A DNA stretch of 13,916 nt from Lachnospiraceae bacterium (lineage in GTDB: Bacteria; Bacillota; Clostridia; Lachnospirales; Lachnospiraceae): NCBI GenBank assembly GCA_017420605.1, contig JAFOIS010000298.1, positions 1-13,916 on the forward strand, read 5' to 3'. The notes below the pieces were generated by a model, which made no database searches, had not been told where the DNA came from, and saw only the letters and a list, made by a program, of their open reading frames with translations. Shown one piece after another: positions 1,198 through 6,721 of this stretch. The translations under genes were made by a program, and so were the position numbers. Each line of letters starts with the position of its first letter. Within the stretch, counting starts at the first letter, position 1.

Positions 1198-3114
1198 TCA
1201 GAACATTTTTCTCGACAGGATCGCCTGGATCACAAGCGAGTTGGTCTTGAGCCTCGAGAACATGTTGATGATCGCGTCCGCGGCCTCTTCGGCACGGATA
1301 CCGGACAGCGAACGGCGCATCACGCCGACTGCTTCCAGCTCCTCCGGCGTAAGAAGAAGATCCTCGCGCCTTGTGCCGGATTTGGCGATATCGATCGCCG
1401 GGAAGATCCGCCGCTCCTGGAGCTTGCGGTCCAGGATCAGTTCCATGTTGCCGGTGCCCTTGAATTCTTCGTAAACGACGTCATCCATCTTGCTGCCGGT
1501 ATCGACGAGCGCCGTCGCGAGGATCGTGAGCGAACCGCCTTCCCGCATCTTCCTGGCCGCGCCGAAGAAGCGCTTCGGCATATAGAGCGCCGTCGGATCG
1601 AGACCGCCCGAGAGCGTCTTCCCGCTCGGCGGGACGAGGATATTGCAGGCGCGCGCAAGGCGCGTGATGGAATCGAGAAGGATGACAACGTCCTGCTTGT
1701 GCTCGACGAGCCTTTTCGCGCGTTCGATCACCATCTCGGATACGCGCTTGTGATGATCCGGCAGTTCGTCGAAGGTCGAATAGATGATCTCCACGTTCTT
1801 GCCGTGGACGGTCTCCTTCATATCCGTCACTTCCTCGGGCCTTTCGTCCACGAGCAGGATGATCAGGTTGGCCTCGGGATCCTTATAGAGGATCGAATTC
1901 GCGATATCCTTAAGAAGCGTCGTCTTGCCGGCCTTCGGCGGGGAAACGATCATGCCGCGCTGCCCTTTTCCGATCGGACTGATGAGGTCCACGATCCGGG
2001 CCGCGGTGGTTCCGTCCGGCCGCTCCAGACGGATCCTCTCGTGCGGAAATTCCGGCGTCATATGTTCAAAAGCCGGACGCGTCCTTGCCTCTTCGGCCGG
2101 GAAGCCGTTCACGCTCTCCACATAGAGGAGGGCTCCGAATTTTTCTCCCTGCGCCCGGTCACGCGTAAACCCGCACACCATGTCGCCTGTCTTCAGATTG
2201 AACCGGCGGATCTGGGACGGCGATACATAGACGTCATTGTCCCCGGGCAGGAAATTATCGCTCCGGAGGAAACCGAAGCCGTCGGACATGACCTCCAGGA
2301 TCCCCCGCGTGCGCGATCCCTCGCGGGCGCGGTTCTCATCCCTGGTTTCCGCAGGCGCTTCGGCCTCCTCCGCGCCGTTTTTCGCGTCAGGCGTATCCTG
2401 CGGGACCGCCGCCGTCTCCGGCTCGGCGTTTCCGGCGGCTTCCTCCCTGCGTGGCTCTCTTGCGCCGTTCCGGCGTCCGCGGGATGCTCTTCCGCGTCCC
2501 CTGCCGCCCTGTTCGGGCTTTCTCGCCTCTTCCTTTACGGCTGCGCCGGCCATCTCCGTGCCGGCCGCCTCCGTGCCGGCCGTCTCCGGTCCGGCTGTAT
2601 CCGCACTGCCCGGAGCTTCTTCTTTCGTCTCCGTGCTCTTTACGGCCTCGTTTCCGGCGCCTTTGCGCTTCCGGATCACGCGTCCGGCATTTGCGGCCTT
2701 ATGTCCGCGTCCTTCTGCGCCCTCCGTCCTGGGCTGCGCGCCTTTTGCGGTCTCGCTCTTCCGCTCCGCGTTCTTATCGTTTTCGGTCTTCTGTTCCGGA
2801 CTTCTGTCGTTTTCGCTCTTCCGGTCCTGACTCTTATCGTTTTCGCTCTTCCGTTCCGGGCTCTTTTCATTTTCAGACTTCCGCTCCGGACCGGCTGCAT
2901 GCCCGCCTTTCCGTCTGCGCTCCGTACCGGCATCCTGCCGGCGGGATTCCCTGACCTTTTCCTGAAGCTTCGCAACTTCCTCGGCCGTATCCATGGCCAG
3001 CATCGTTTCGATCAGTTCATCCTTTTTCATCGCATAATAGTGCTTTACACCGCGCGCTTTCGCAATATCTTTGAGCGCGGCAGCAGAAAGCGTCATATAC
3101 CGTTCTTTTGTCAT
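1198..3114 (-). CDS. rho: Transcription termination factor Rho with long repetitive N-terminal insert
   Basis: This is a 638-residue Rho, the hexameric RNA-dependent ATPase that ends transcription; the E. coli protein is about 420 residues. Residues about 6-48 form the Rho N-terminal helical domain. Residues about 270-338 are the cold-shock-type RNA-binding domain, with GFGFLR at 279-284. The motor domain follows, with Walker A PPKAGKTT (392-399), Walker B VVILLDS (476-482), the Q-loop region at 501-522 and the arginine-rich C-terminal part. The excess length is residues about 50-268: a charged, low-complexity and presumably disordered insert. It holds five decapeptide repeats of the type [10 protein letters not shown] (76-125), a pentapeptide series of type TExAG (171-190) and an RGRGR-rich patch (203-223). 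An AAAGGAG ribosome site lies before the ATG. It is transcribed divergently from the tRNA cluster. Confidence 0.98.
2545..2604 (-). repeat. Four 15-bp tandem repeats inside rho
   Basis: Codons 171-190 of rho read [20 protein letters not shown], a five-codon periodicity. It is distinct from the ten-codon series further upstream in the gene. Confidence 0.75.
2725..2889 (-). repeat. Five 30-bp tandem repeats inside rho
   Basis: Within rho, codons 76-130 repeat with a ten-codon period. The protein units run [40 protein letters not shown] and [10 protein letters not shown], decaying towards the C-terminal end. At DNA level the unit includes the plus-strand string TTTTCGCTCTTCCG. All copies keep the reading frame. 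Confidence 0.9.
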
Positions 3115-3379: not shown

Positions 3380-3454
3380 CGGGGTGTGGCTCAGTTTGGC
3401 TAGAGCGCCTGCTTTGGGAGCAGGAAGCCGCAGGTTCGAATCCTGTCACCCCGA
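3380..3454 (+). tRNA. tRNA-Pro (anticodon TGG)
   Basis: Complete cloverleaf: acceptor CGGGGTG pairs with CACCCCG, anticodon stem CCTGC/GCAGG encloses TTTGGGA, and the T-loop is TTCGAAT. The discriminator is A. The terminal CCA is not encoded, since CTC follows. It is the first gene of the cluster. Confidence 0.97.
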
Positions 3455-3480
3455 CTCTTACCGGAGAGACAACACTACGC

Positions 3481-3551
3481 GCGGGCGTAGTTCATCGGTA
3501 GAACACCAGCCTTCCAAGCTGGATAGGTGGGTTCGATTCCCATCGCCCGCT
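3481..3551 (+). tRNA. tRNA-Gly (anticodon TCC)
   Basis: Acceptor GCGGGCG pairs with CGCCCGC, anticodon stem CCAGC/GCTGG encloses CTTCCAA, and the T-loop is TTCGATT. The discriminator is T, usual for bacterial glycine tRNA. CCA is not encoded. Confidence 0.97.
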
Positions 3552-3557
3552 CTTTAC

Positions 3558-3631
<74 letters not shown>

Positions 3632-3646
3632 TTCTGGCAATTATAT

Positions 3647-3721
3647 GGTGGGTGTGGCGTAGTTGGTTAACGCGCCAGATTGTGGATCTGGAGATCGTGG
3701 GTTCAAGTCCCATCTCCCACC
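3647..3721 (+). tRNA. tRNA-His (anticodon GTG)
   Basis: Anticodon stem CCAGA/TCTGG encloses TTGTGGA. The extra 5' G (position -1, at 3647) faces discriminator C at 3721, the identity feature of histidine tRNA. In the acceptor GTGGGTG/CTCCCAC the sixth pair is a T-T mismatch. CCA is not encoded. A small TCGGC-GAA-GCCGA hairpin (3723-3735) fills the spacer to the next tRNA. Confidence 0.96.
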
Positions 3722-3742
3722 TTCGGCGAAGCCGAGACCAAT

Positions 3743-3814
3743 TGGGCTATCGCCAAGGGGTAAGGCACAGCACTTTGACTGCTGCATTCGGTGGTTCAAA
3801 TCCACCTAGCCCAG
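3743..3814 (+). tRNA. tRNA-Gln (anticodon TTG)
   Basis: Acceptor TGGGCTA pairs with TAGCCCA, anticodon stem CAGCA/TGCTG encloses CTTTGAC, and the T-loop is TTCAAAT. The U1-A72 type first pair is typical for glutamine tRNA. The discriminator is G and CCA is not encoded. Confidence 0.97.
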
Positions 3815-3819
3815 TACCT

Positions 3820-3892
3820 GGAGCATTAGCTCAGGCGGTAGAGCACTTGACTTTTAATCAAGTTGTCCGGGGTTCGAGTCCCCGATGCTTCA
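3820..3892 (+). tRNA. tRNA-Lys (anticodon TTT)
   Basis: Acceptor GGAGCAT pairs with ATGCTTC (one G-U), anticodon stem CTTGA/TCAAG encloses CTTTTAA, and the T-loop is TTCGAGT. The discriminator is A and CCA is not encoded. Confidence 0.97.
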
Positions 3893-3903
3893 TGATGTAA
3901 ATG

Positions 3904-3933
3904 AAAGCCGCGGTTTCAGCCGTCGGCTTTTTT
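3904..3933 (+). terminator. Intrinsic terminator-like hairpin between tRNA-Lys and tRNA-Leu
   Basis: AAAGCCG-CGG (3904-3913) pairs with CCG-CGGCTTT (3920-3930) across one bulged T, with loop TTTCAG, and a six-T run ends at 3933. By form it is a good intrinsic terminator, yet tRNA-Leu begins seven bases later. Confidence 0.75.
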
Positions 3934-3939
3934 CATTCC

Positions 3940-4021
3940 GCGGCTCTGATGGAATTGGCAGACATGCAGGATTTAGGTTCCTGTTCCTTTCGGAGTAGGG
4001 GTTCAAGTCCCCTGAGCCGCA
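3940..4021 (+). tRNA. tRNA-Leu (anticodon TAG)
   Basis: This is a class II tRNA with a long variable arm (GTTCCTTTCGGAGTA region). Acceptor GCGGCTC pairs with GAGCCGC, anticodon stem CAGGA/TCCTG encloses TTTAGGT, and the T-loop is TTCAAGT. The discriminator is A and CCA is not encoded. No promoter of its own could be found in the short gap after the preceding hairpin. Confidence 0.96.
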
Positions 4022-4083
4022 CTCACAAAGCTGCGCCGGCAGAAAACGGCGTGAAACGCGCGGCCGCCCGGTAAGGGCACGGT

Positions 4084-5400
4084 TTACGATCCGCCCCCTG
4101 TTTCGGCCTTAAGACGGTGGAGAATACTGCTTCCGATCCGTTTCTCCATCTCGCGGTACTGCCGTATCTCTTCTTTCGTGAATCCCGCAAAACATACCGT
4201 ATCGAGGTCCCGGTCCAGCTGCCGCAGTTCCTCTTCAAGCTCCGGTGCCCGGAATGAAAAGCGTTCTTTTCCTCCGGAAGGCGTTTCGCGCCTTACCCGG
4301 CCGTCCGCCAGAAGCCTCGCCACCCCCGCGATCACGGCAGGCCTCCCCATTCCGGTCAGCAGACACAGACTCTCAACGGTGCAGGGCCCCTGCAGCTTTT
4401 CCATGCAGTATAAAAGTTTTATTCCGGCCTCATCCATTCCGTATTTCCGGCCCAGCGTTTCCATATACCGTTCAAGGAGACGCGCTTCCAGGACCGCGCT
4501 GCGCATCGGGAAGCCGGTCCCGCTTACGGCGGACAGGGCAGACAGTGCTTCTCCTTCCTCTATCTTCCGGGTACCCGGTGAAAACGGCAGCGCAAGACTG
4601 TCATGACTGACGGCCAGAAGATAGCCGTAAATCACCGGCAGCCGCTCCTGATAGGCGGGGGCGTCAAAGGTCTTTTTGAAAAACTCGTTATAGTAGCCTA
4701 TGACGTTTTTCTTCATTTTGATTGTGCTGCTCAGATTCAGGCTTTGGTCTACCAGGGAGTCTTTGGTGTACTGGTAGTAATAAACCGGGGCTTTCAGGAT
4801 CGCTATGTTCTTGACATGGAGAAGGTATTCCAGATTGAAGATCATATCCTCGCTGTAGCTGATATTCTCGTCCATGCGTATGTCGTAACGCTCAATGATG
4901 TCTCTCCGGTACAGTTTGTTCCACAGGACGCCGAAATAAAGATCCGCAGGCGCGAGCATCATCTCATCGGCATACTGCCGGAGAGAAAGCGTCCCGTTTT
5001 TTTCGATGGATCCTTTTTCAGAAACGTTTCCGTCTACAACGCGGTAAAAATCGCCTACGACAAGCTCGGCCGCCTGCGCTTCCATTTCCCGTGTAAGAAG
5101 TTTTGTGGCGTCCATCGGCAGCCAGTCGTCCACATCCGCAAACTGCACGTAGGTTCCGTCCGCTTCGGCAAGGGCCCGGTTCCGGGCAGAAGACACACCG
5201 CCGTTTTCCTGGTGGATCGCCTTCACCCTGGGATCCGCGGCGGCAACAGCCTGCATGATCTCAAAGGAGCGGTCCCGGCTGCCGTCGTCTACCAGGATCA
5301 GTTCCAGTTCGGAGTAGTCCTGATTCAGAATGCTTTCCGCACAGCGTTTGATACTTTTCTCTCCGTTATAAACGGGAACGATGACACTGACTTTTTCCAT
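4084..5400 (-). CDS. Family 2 glycosyltransferase with C-terminal MarR-like winged-helix domain
   Basis: The product has 438 residues. Residues 1 to about 240 form a GT-A fold, family 2 transferase: VSVIVPVYNG (4-13), LILVDDGSRD (34-43), NGGVSSARN (66-74), a metal/nucleotide-sugar motif ADVDDW (88-93), NKLYRR (161-166) and SEDMIF (183-188), where D185 is the likely catalytic base. No membrane segments are evident. From about residue 302 the protein looks different: it matches the MarR-family pattern, with a helix entering GMDEAGIKLLYCMEK (321-335), a helix-turn-helix at about 340-364 (VESLCLLTG then RPAVIAGVARLL), a basic wing (365-383), and a C-terminal dimerisation-type helix opening GFTKEEIRQY (406-415). 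The domain call is by eye. It sits three bases downstream of the gtrA-like gene, with GAAAGGA as ribosome site. The sugar and acceptor are unknown. Confidence 0.85.
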   Translation of the reverse strand: MEKVSVIVPVYNGEKSIKRCAESILNQDYSELELILVDDGSRDRSFEIMQAVAAADPRVKAIHQENGGVSSARNRALAEADGTYVQFADVDDWLPMDATKLLTREMEAQAAELVVGDFYRVVDGNVSEKGSIEKNGTLSLRQYADEMMLAPADLYFGVLWNKLYRRDIIERYDIRMDENISYSEDMIFNLEYLLHVKNIAILKAPVYYYQYTKDSLVDQSLNLSSTIKMKKNVIGYYNEFFKKTFDAPAYQERLPVIYGYLLAVSHDSLALPFSPGTRKIEEGEALSALSAVSGTGFPMRSAVLEARLLERYMETLGRKYGMDEAGIKLLYCMEKLQGPCTVESLCLLTGMGRPAVIAGVARLLADGRVRRETPSGGKERFSFRAPELEEELRQLDRDLDTVCFAGFTKEEIRQYREMEKRIGSSILHRLKAETGGGS

Positions 5401-5403
5401 TCT

Positions 5404-5964
5404 TTATTCCTTTCTGAACAACACGTATTTTTCCAAAGGGAACAGCACTGCAACCTGCACAAGTCCCGCAGCCGTGGCGGCAATGGTCCTGGCCGGCGCC
5501 GCAAAGGCTGTTACGGACAATCTGGCGGTGATCCATCCCTGCAGCCAGGTGGAAAAGAGGATCAATGCCGTAAGGACCGCAAGATACGCGATGAGACCGC
5601 TGCGGCTTCCCTTTCCGCGGAACGTGGTCTTCATGTTCATGAAATAGCCGTAAATATTGGCCAGAAAATTGGACAGGAAGAAAGGCAGCACATATCCCCA
5701 GGTCACCACGCCCCCGACCACATAGGGGGAAGGCCCTTCAAAAAGGGTCTCCGGCCGGAAGAGCGGGCTCAGAAACGGAGGCAGCTTTGCAGTTACGCCG
5801 TCAAAGAGCAGAGGCAGCAGATTGGCCAGGGCAAGCTGCAGCAGGGTGATGCTGAAGGATACCAGGTTGAACTTGATAAACTGCCAGAGGGCACTGTCGC
5901 CGAACCGGACATCAAGTTTTCTCAGAATATTCATGCTCTCCTTCTTATGTAAACTCTCATTCAT
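5404..5964 (-). CDS. GtrA-family membrane protein
   Basis: This is a 186-residue protein with four hydrophobic segments, at about residues 29-52, 84-108, 122-147 and 157-178. The pattern NFLANIYGYFMNMKTTFRGK (99-118) and the ending PLEKYVLFRKE fit the GtrA family. Members of that family are thought to move or help transfer polyprenyl-phosphate-linked sugars across the membrane for wall, teichoic acid or O-antigen decoration, and usually pair with a family 2 glycosyltransferase, as here. Residues 53-83 form an extramembrane loop longer than in many relatives. The start at 5964 follows an AGGAG ribosome site. It is the first gene after the CIRCE-covered promoter and overlaps nothing. The substrate cannot be told from sequence. 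Confidence 0.88.
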   Translation of the reverse strand: MNESLHKKESMNILRKLDVRFGDSALWQFIKFNLVSFSITLLQLALANLLPLLFDGVTAKLPPFLSPLFRPETLFEGPSPYVVGGVVTWGYVLPFFLSNFLANIYGYFMNMKTTFRGKGSRSGLIAYLAVLTALILFSTWLQGWITARLSVTAFAAPARTIAATAAGLVQVAVLFPLEKYVLFRKE

Positions 5965-5990
5965 TTCATATCGATCTCCTGTGCGCCCAT

Positions 5991-6019
5991 GTTATACCAC
6001 AGGTTTTAGCACTCGTCAA
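5991..6019 (-). promoter_or_regulatory. Sigma-A promoter of the gtrA-glycosyltransferase operon
   Basis: On the minus strand TTGACG (6019-6014), a 17-base spacer and TATAAC (5996-5991) each match five of six consensus positions. The start point falls near 5984, about 20 bases before the gtrA-like ATG. The -35 box and the start of the spacer lie inside the CIRCE element, so a bound repressor would block polymerase. Confidence 0.9.
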
Positions 6020-6032
6020 TAGAGAGTGCTAA
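6006..6032 (-). promoter_or_regulatory. Perfect CIRCE operator (HrcA binding site)
   Basis: TTAGCACTC (6006-6014), nine bases, GAGTGCTAA (6024-6032) is an exact match to the CIRCE inverted repeat that binds the heat-shock repressor HrcA. Known CIRCE elements control mainly hrcA-grpE-dnaK and groES-groEL. Here the only downstream genes within reach are the gtrA-like and glycosyltransferase genes on the minus strand. On the plus strand no gene starts nearby. Confidence 0.95.
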
Positions 6033-6090: not shown

Positions 6091-6117
6091 AAAAAGCGCC
6101 TGCTTACGCAAGCGCTT
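6091..6117 (-). terminator. Intrinsic terminator of the rlmL-rdgB operon
   Basis: On the minus strand the arm 6117-6108 pairs with 6103-6094 (ten pairs, one G-U) around a four-base GTAA loop, followed by T residues at 6095-6091. The TAA stop codon of rdgB (6106-6104) lies in the loop, so the last codons of the gene form the terminator. It isolates rdgB from the CIRCE-controlled operon. Confidence 0.85.
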
Positions 6118-6721
6118 CTTTTATGAGAGATTCCATTTTCCGCATTGCCTTGCCGCGGTGGCTGATCCGGTTTTTTTCTTCATCCGTAAGCTCCGCTGCC
6201 GTTCGTCCGTCTTCGCCGGCCACAAAAACGGGGTCGAATCCGAATCCGTTTCTGCCGCGCGCTTCGTGGCCGATCTTCCCCTCCATCGTCTCCTCCGCAA
6301 GATACGTACGGCCGTCCGGAAACGCGGCCGCGATCGCGCAGACGTACCTCGCCGTCCGCTTCTCCTCCGGCACGTCCGAGAGCATGGAAAGGATCGCCGC
6401 GTTTTTCTTATCATACGGCGTTTCGTGTCCCATGAACCGCGCGGAATGCACGCCCGGGCGTCCGTCCAGCGCATCGATCACAAGACCGGAATCATCGGCG
6501 AGGGTTATGCAGCCGAGCGCGCCGCAGACGGTCTTTGCCTTGATCATGGCATTGTCGGCAAAGGTCTCCCCGTTTTCGTCGATATCTCCCGTAAAGCCGG
6601 CCTCCTTCATGGAAACGACTTCGACGGGAAGATCCGAGAGGATCTCCCGGATCTCCCGAAGCTTATCGGCGTTTCCCGTTGCAAATACGACCTTTTTGAT
6701 TTCTTTATCCGCGCTGTCCAT
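6104..6721 (-). CDS. rdgB: XTP/dITP pyrophosphatase (RdgB/HAM1 family)
   Basis: The 205-residue enzyme hydrolyses the non-canonical purine triphosphates XTP, dITP and ITP to monophosphates, keeping deaminated purines out of DNA and RNA. Family motifs are all present: TGNADK (15-20), GETFADNA (51-58), ADDSGLVIDAL (75-85) with the catalytic aspartate, GVHSARF (90-96), NGFGFDPVF (158-166) and SHRGKA (187-192). The length is typical. The start overlaps the end of the upstream methyltransferase gene by 17 bases in another frame, which suggests translational coupling; GGAGAG lies upstream. The stop codon lies in the loop of an intrinsic terminator. Confidence 0.96.
   Translation of the reverse strand: MDSADKEIKKVVFATGNADKLREIREILSDLPVEVVSMKEAGFTGDIDENGETFADNAMIKAKTVCGALGCITLADDSGLVIDALDGRPGVHSARFMGHETPYDKKNAAILSMLSDVPEEKRTARYVCAIAAAFPDGRTYLAEETMEGKIGHEARGRNGFGFDPVFVAGEDGRTAAELTDEEKNRISHRGKAMRKMESLIKEALA

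Follow-up and report, generated by a model that had tools for sequence, protein, structure and literature searches.

A consensus CIRCE operator ahead of a gtrA-like gene and a glycosyltransferase gene in a Lachnospiraceae bacterium: probable inheritance from a mobile hsp20 operon

HrcA is usually viewed as a switch for protein-folding genes. It might be thought surprising, then, that a CIRCE operator should stand directly in front of two genes with a presumed role in sugar transfer. This is the arrangement in the DNA analysed here, a contig of 13,916 nt from a Lachnospiraceae bacterium, which is called the window below. The question is how the operator came to lie there and whether the gene pair behind it is likely to be controlled by HrcA.

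The operator, its promoter and the gene pair

The features on which the argument is built are the following:

6091-6120, minus strand: 13-bp hairpin where rdgB ends, spanning its stop codon; probable terminator
6006-6032, minus strand: CIRCE operator, 18 of 18 arm positions, with a corresponding site in eight relatives
6019-6014, minus strand: -35 hexamer TTGACG, lying within the loop and 3' arm of CIRCE (by eye from the sequence)
5996-5991, minus strand: -10 hexamer TATAAC after a 17-nt spacer, preceded by TGG, an extended -10 (by eye)
5404-5964, minus strand: gene for a gtrA-like small membrane protein of 186 aa, open from start to stop
4084-5400, minus strand: gene for a family 2 glycosyltransferase (GT2; PF00535, 2.4e-35) with a predicted MarR-like winged-helix domain, 438 aa, open from start to stop

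The operator is an exact TTAGCACTC-N9-GAGTGCTAA, and its loop reads TCTATTGAC on the minus strand. With up to 3 mismatches allowed the window contains no second match, and 200 dinucleotide shuffles gave a mean chance expectation of 0.01. The initial annotation had described a perfect CIRCE overlapping the -35 box of a near-consensus promoter, and this description (18/18, TTGACG-17-TATAAC) stands. The promoter is absent from a consensus promoter scan, which requires T at the last -10 position; the bases TATAA of the -10 box are kept in all eight CIRCE-bearing relatives. Just upstream of the promoter lies the rdgB-end hairpin (-25.1 kcal/mol, z -4.5). Because a strong hairpin separates it from rdgB, the CIRCE promoter should start a transcript of its own. 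The operator is real and looks functional, ahead of genes that do not encode chaperones.

The two downstream genes had been named as gtrA-like and as a glycosyltransferase-MarR fusion, and both proved to be intact. For gtrA an alternative start is possible at 5934, after AAGGAG. Its product scores 24.1 bits against PF04138, just below the cut-off of 26.1, and is not among the matches of the genome-wide profile search at E 0.001. A simple scan finds two hydrophobic segments in it, and its identity is 78-84% in eight aligned relatives and 52-57% in four more distant ones. The GT2 protein consists of a GT-A fold (residues ~1-265) and a C-terminal part (~298-435) for which models and fold searches predict a MarR-like winged helix. 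The MarR-like part of the window's own protein reaches 15.6 bits against a Pfam cut-off of 27, and the MarR_2 profile was found in 21 of 30 aligned family members, so that both fold and profile point to the MarR type. The simple scan gave no hydrophobic segment in GT2. The other genes tested have GC contents of 0.518-0.637, and gtrA and GT2, at 0.537 and 0.544, fall within this span.

The HrcA regulon of the genome and the genus

Published members of the HrcA/CIRCE regulon include groESL, hrcA-grpE-dnaK-dnaJ and rpoH (PMC545781) as well as htpG (PMC3828012). In the genome of the window hrcA is present (C66; TIGR00331, 303.8 bits against a cut-off of 197.2). A genome-wide search at up to 3 mismatches found six CIRCE sites, while the reversed-pattern control gave none. 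The five sites outside the window precede lon, hrcA, htpG and hsp20, all named by profile, and groES-groEL, recognised by eye. The presence of hrcA, which the initial annotation had made a condition of its proposal, and of further operators, for which it had advised a scan, is thereby confirmed. Among 29 genomes queried hrcA was found in 28, that is in 27 of the 28 besides the window's; the 28 other genomes hold 28 of the 57 GtrA loci described below.

All 42 genomes of a genus sample carried CIRCE sites at up to 2 mismatches (2-9 per genome), and the reversed control gave none in 40 of them and one in each of the other two. For classification we used 74 sites from 13 of these genomes (G000-G012), again at up to 2 mismatches. 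Sites were labelled from the one or two open frames that follow them, compared by BLAST with the genes of the window's genome, and the ClpB and FtsH labels were assigned after profile searches. The labels were Hsp20 (12), GroES (12), GroEL (1), Lon (11), HrcA (11), HtpG (11), ClpB (10), FtsH (2), GtrA (1, the window) and other (3). Thus 70 of the 74 sites precede hrcA, groES/EL, htpG, lon, hsp20, clpB or ftsH, and the regulon is wider here than the dnaK and groESL operons that had been taken as the main HrcA targets.

The sites differ in how the promoter is placed. In a set of 91 sites, made up of the 74 and a single exact site from each of 17 more genomes (G013-G029), a -35 sequence TTGAC lies inside CIRCE at 14/14 hsp20 sites, at 10/10 clpB sites and at the window's site, but at 0/66 others; for clpB the strand was chosen by script via TTGAC and is in each case the strand tabulated for the gene. 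By its promoter sequence the window's site is thus of the hsp20/clpB subtype. It shares with the class I HrcA/CIRCE regulon the operator, the repressor gene and a repressor site lying over a housekeeping-type promoter, and it is of the same type as the hsp20 and clpB sites of the genus. Unlike in that regulon, the first gene encodes neither a chaperone nor a protease. Predicted members outside the chaperones have been described before: CAC2705, a membrane protein of unknown function adjoining groESL (PMC3828012), and in L. plantarum lp_1880 (unknown function) and lp_1268 (integrase), both of which change in an hrcA mutant (PMC3842655).

Some further sites of the genus deserve mention. In two genomes ftsH directly follows CIRCE, with 0 mismatches (L161, G006) and 1 mismatch (L219, G007). 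On G011:C84 a CIRCE-like sequence with 1 mismatch (L241, 1801-1827) lies 26 bp ahead of a gene for a 409-aa CD-NTase (1854-3083, plus strand; SMODS 1.6e-8 in Pfam, PADLOC Cyclase 4.3e-84), possibly a single case of an anti-phage cyclase gene under HrcA. On G011:C257 (L240) CIRCE and hsp20 are followed by a gene with a J-domain-like start (by eye), and a CIRCE-like sequence with 1 mismatch, to which no gene could be assigned, was found close to a contig end (L236, G010:C73:201-227).

The operon in relatives and the deletion junction

With the window's GtrA as query we found 57 loci, 25 of which also carry this GT2. Nine of the 25 are cut by a contig end. Among the 16 with enough upstream DNA, CIRCE heads gtrA-GT2 in eight (L069, L070, L072, L077, L078, L080, L081 and L083, with 0-1 mismatch) and is absent from the other eight (L071, L079, L082, L084, L087, L094, L095 and L123). 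Not even a weak CIRCE precedes the latter, the best candidates having 6-8 mismatches, like shuffled sequence. Since half of the testable loci lack the operator, a link with HrcA is not needed in every host. The comparison with relatives, which the initial annotation had proposed, gave a mixed picture: the operator recurs, but two of the loci without it, L071 and L084, are close relatives of the window. Just upstream of gtrA in L071 there is a stretch (~5550-5994) flanked by matching inverted ends of ~30 bp (by eye), which may be a small mobile element tied to the missing CIRCE.

Five of the eight CIRCE-bearing relatives have the order CIRCE-hsp20-DUF308-gtrA-GT2 and two the order CIRCE-hsp20-gtrA-GT2. 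In the eighth, L080, CIRCE is followed by the tail of hsp20 only, a shortened DUF308 gene and then gtrA-GT2. The window has no hsp20 between CIRCE and gtrA. The distance from CIRCE to gtrA is 671-1253 bp in six relatives and 41 bp in the window, and these 41 bp can be divided, together with their margins, as follows:

5982-6005, minus strand: CIRCE-side leader, 19/24 identical to the CIRCE side of the L069 hsp20 operon
5974-5981, minus strand: presumed deletion junction of 8 nt, CAGGAGAT, which may include a ribosome-binding site serving the first ATG
5955-5973, minus strand: gtrA-side stretch, 18/19 identical to the L069 DNA just before and into gtrA

Over the 44 bases of CIRCE and promoter the window is identical to L038 at 39. 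Both ends of the leader thus match the hsp20 operon while its middle is absent, as would be expected had hsp20 and the DUF308 gene been deleted.

The direction of the change is suggested by a tree of GtrA and GT2 with 25 rows, from which L070, with only a short piece of GT2, was omitted. With support 88 the window falls together with L069 (CIRCE-hsp20-DUF308), L072 (CIRCE-hsp20) and L071 (no CIRCE), and the other ingroup clade also contains CIRCE-hsp20-DUF308 members; several inner nodes are weak (support 14-71). As this gene order occurs in both ingroup clades, loss in the window would be the simpler history. The hsp20 genes of L073 and L090 belong to a separate lineage, 56-58% identical to the L083 type, and also precede gtrA-GT2, an indication that hsp20 and the sugar pair were joined, or joined anew, on more than one occasion. 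On a contig of the same genus (L166/L237, G011:C31) the CIRCE is identical to that of L078 and the hsp20 is 95% identical to the L083 operon type; the contig stops 673 bp past the CIRCE start, before any gtrA position is visible.

We consider it probable that the window has retained its promoter from a mobile hsp20 operon whose chaperone gene was lost, and that HrcA control now extends to the sugar pair. The ancestral form would have been CIRCE/promoter, hsp20, DUF308 gene, gtrA and GT2-MarR; after deletion of hsp20 and the DUF308 gene the hsp20-type promoter would read directly into gtrA-GT2. HrcA, held active by free GroEL, would cover CIRCE and the -35 box and keep the promoter off. On heat, or whenever unfolded proteins occupy GroEL, HrcA would release the operator and gtrA-GT2 would be transcribed along with the chaperones. 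The products would then alter a cell-surface glycan, GT2 using a nucleotide sugar and the GtrA-like protein moving or presenting a lipid-linked sugar. Such HrcA control of the pair is likely and the best reading, because hrcA is strongly matched, five other CIRCE sites exist in the genome and CIRCE precedes the pair in half of the testable relatives. Since a second CIRCE-hsp20 is kept in the genome, loss of this one need not have hurt.

The least improbable alternative is that CIRCE and promoter are mere leftovers of the lost hsp20, giving no useful response, with gtrA-GT2 simply next in line and decaying or constitutive. The hsp20 gene is indeed damaged or gone repeatedly: it matches residues 38-149 only in L069, is split over two frames in L078, where a sequencing error is possible, and is reduced or missing in L080 and the window. 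The gene loss along the operon could be decay on the way out. To this may be added the half of the testable loci in which the pair has no CIRCE, and L038, whose gtrA has no obvious in-frame start, possibly again through a sequencing error (L038, from the same-genus genome G020, and L078 each lie on a contig of 10,363 bp and are probably the same record). In the window, however, all 18 arm positions are kept, the -35 and -10 boxes are near consensus and both genes are full length, and in L080 as in the window it is the chaperone that has gone and the switch and the sugar genes that were retained. We therefore regard a relic as unlikely. A deleted chaperone operon, with the operator left behind as a relic, had been named beforehand as a refuting outcome; the chaperone does appear to have been lost, but the operator looks inherited from a chaperone operon and not relic-like, with site, promoter and both genes intact.

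The initial annotation had spoken of an HrcA regulon member outside the chaperones, which can be read as another origin, the recruitment of a sugar operon by HrcA independently of them. A CIRCE promoter would then have arisen or been captured before gtrA-GT2 without ever passing through an hsp20 operon. Other promoters are evidently workable, as shown by the CIRCE-less pairs outside the close clade (L079, L082, L087, L094, L095 and L123), and in one of these, L082, a good separate promoter can be recognised by eye. But hsp20 stands between CIRCE and gtrA in seven of the eight CIRCE-bearing relatives and a remnant of it in the eighth, CIRCE and promoter align with those of an hsp20 operon (L038), the other end of the leader aligns with the DNA before gtrA in L069, the window is placed among carriers of the hsp20 operon in the tree, and the -35 box inside CIRCE is the fingerprint of the hsp20/clpB subtype. 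An independent origin is thus very improbable; of the original claim, control of the pair by HrcA is the part that remains.

Chromosomal place, transfer and known systems

On this account the window would hold, at a new place between rdgB and a tRNA array, a shortened copy of a mobile heat-shock operon controlled by HrcA. All 26 congeneric loci with an rdgB ortholog (L127-L152, each from a different genome) have yfcE in the same orientation as rdgB and no more than 300 bp downstream of it; three further rdgB matches were set aside, L154 because a contig end cuts it and L153 and L155 at 33-34% identity. At 18 of these 26 loci tRNA genes come after yfcE in the same orientation, at L136 there is just one tRNA, on the opposite strand, and seven show none in the available DNA. 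In the window yfcE is missing beside rdgB, only weaker relatives (35% and 39%) being found elsewhere, and CIRCE-gtrA-GT2 occupies its place. The tRNA genes downstream of GT2 are on the opposite strand and form a seven-gene array (3380-4022) that is inverted with respect to the 18 congeneric loci. Genes typical of the genus flank the operon, namely L31, rho (recognised by eye) and the set of tRNAs in one direction, rdgB and rlmL in the other. The operon appears to be foreign to this position. Among the loci examined there was no exact sister carrying gtrA-GT2 at the rdgB site. Flanks differ among most hosts of the operon, with some pieces common to L072, L078 and L083 upstream and to L077, L080 and L083 downstream. 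That the CIRCE-gtrA-GT2 piece is an artefact of assembly or binning and foreign to this chromosome is hardly credible: the assembly comes in 332 contigs and 9 of the 25 operon contigs stop before the CIRCE position, as repeats do in assembly, but the 13.9-kb contig carries genes typical of the genus to either side of the piece, and the GC of both genes is within the range of the others tested.

Protein identities also speak for movement of the unit. In eight hosts (L069-L072, L075, L076, L080 and L083) HrcA is 31-33% identical to that of the window's genome, whereas GtrA is 80-85% and GT2 83-88% identical (one L075 piece 75%); L077 shows the same contrast, with 28% for HrcA, 81% for GtrA and 83% for GT2. 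In operon copies that stand further off (L079, L082, L087 and L090) GT2 identity is 58-65%. Among GT2 relatives encoded on metagenome contigs, the 119 best-ranking other proteins listed have 82-87% identity. The contrast between high GtrA/GT2 and low HrcA identity points to horizontal transfer; as the relatives are metagenome bins, in which a wrongly binned contig can mimic transfer, misbinned contigs are possible too. At E up to 1e-25 GtrA was found in the window's genome, in 0/391 other genomes of the order and in 1/390 other genomes of the class (the samples overlap), and this near-absence marks the gtrA-like gene as sporadic. No GtrA relative was found among viral contigs, and none of the 30 plasmid records matched covers 80% of GT2, the best covering 60%.

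Among the closest known systems are the transmembrane glycosylation systems of the CsbB-GtcA-YfhO type in Bacillus, Listeria and Staphylococcus, in which a GT-A glycosyltransferase is likewise paired with a membrane protein of the GtrA type. Moreover csbB is a stress gene, under sigma-B and sigma-X (PMC8035078). Of the three components of such a transmembrane glycosylation set the operon holds the GT-A enzyme and the GtrA-type protein. It has no GT-C gene; one YfhO-family protein, a possible third component, is encoded elsewhere in the genome (C98). The present pair differs further in that its GT2 has a MarR-like domain and no hydrophobic segment, and in that its stress switch would be HrcA; no sigma-B ortholog is reported as known in Clostridium (PMC3828012). 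The wall teichoic acid glycosyltransferases TarS and TarP of S. aureus and RmlT of Listeria share only 22-26% identity with GT2, and a shared fold shows no substrate. In the titles and opening lines of the abstracts found no CIRCE-controlled gtrA or glycosyltransferase gene is reported, which is not proof that none has been published.

A bolder reading is possible, though doubtful. CIRCE could be a universal plug for horizontal transfer, the sugar pair being part of the HrcA response of several rumen-type Clostridia, with the chaperone shed repeatedly and the pair in a csbB-like role. If so, a travelling operon with a consensus CIRCE would fall under the HrcA of its new host immediately, even at 31-33% identity, and the pair would do in Clostridia without sigma-B what csbB under sigma-B does in Bacillus. 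The MarR-like domain could even let the glycosyltransferase report back on its own expression.

Apart from this, a surface-sugar module seems to have been wired into the HrcA switch through an inherited chaperone promoter. If this is true, the regulon would have gained a non-chaperone member by loss of a chaperone and not by a new site. The -35 box inside CIRCE, which among the sites examined is confined to those of hsp20 and clpB (24/24, with 0/66 elsewhere), offers a handle for tracing the origin of CIRCE promoters. The arrangement would tie the glycans of the clostridial cell envelope to protein-folding stress in a way that can be tested.
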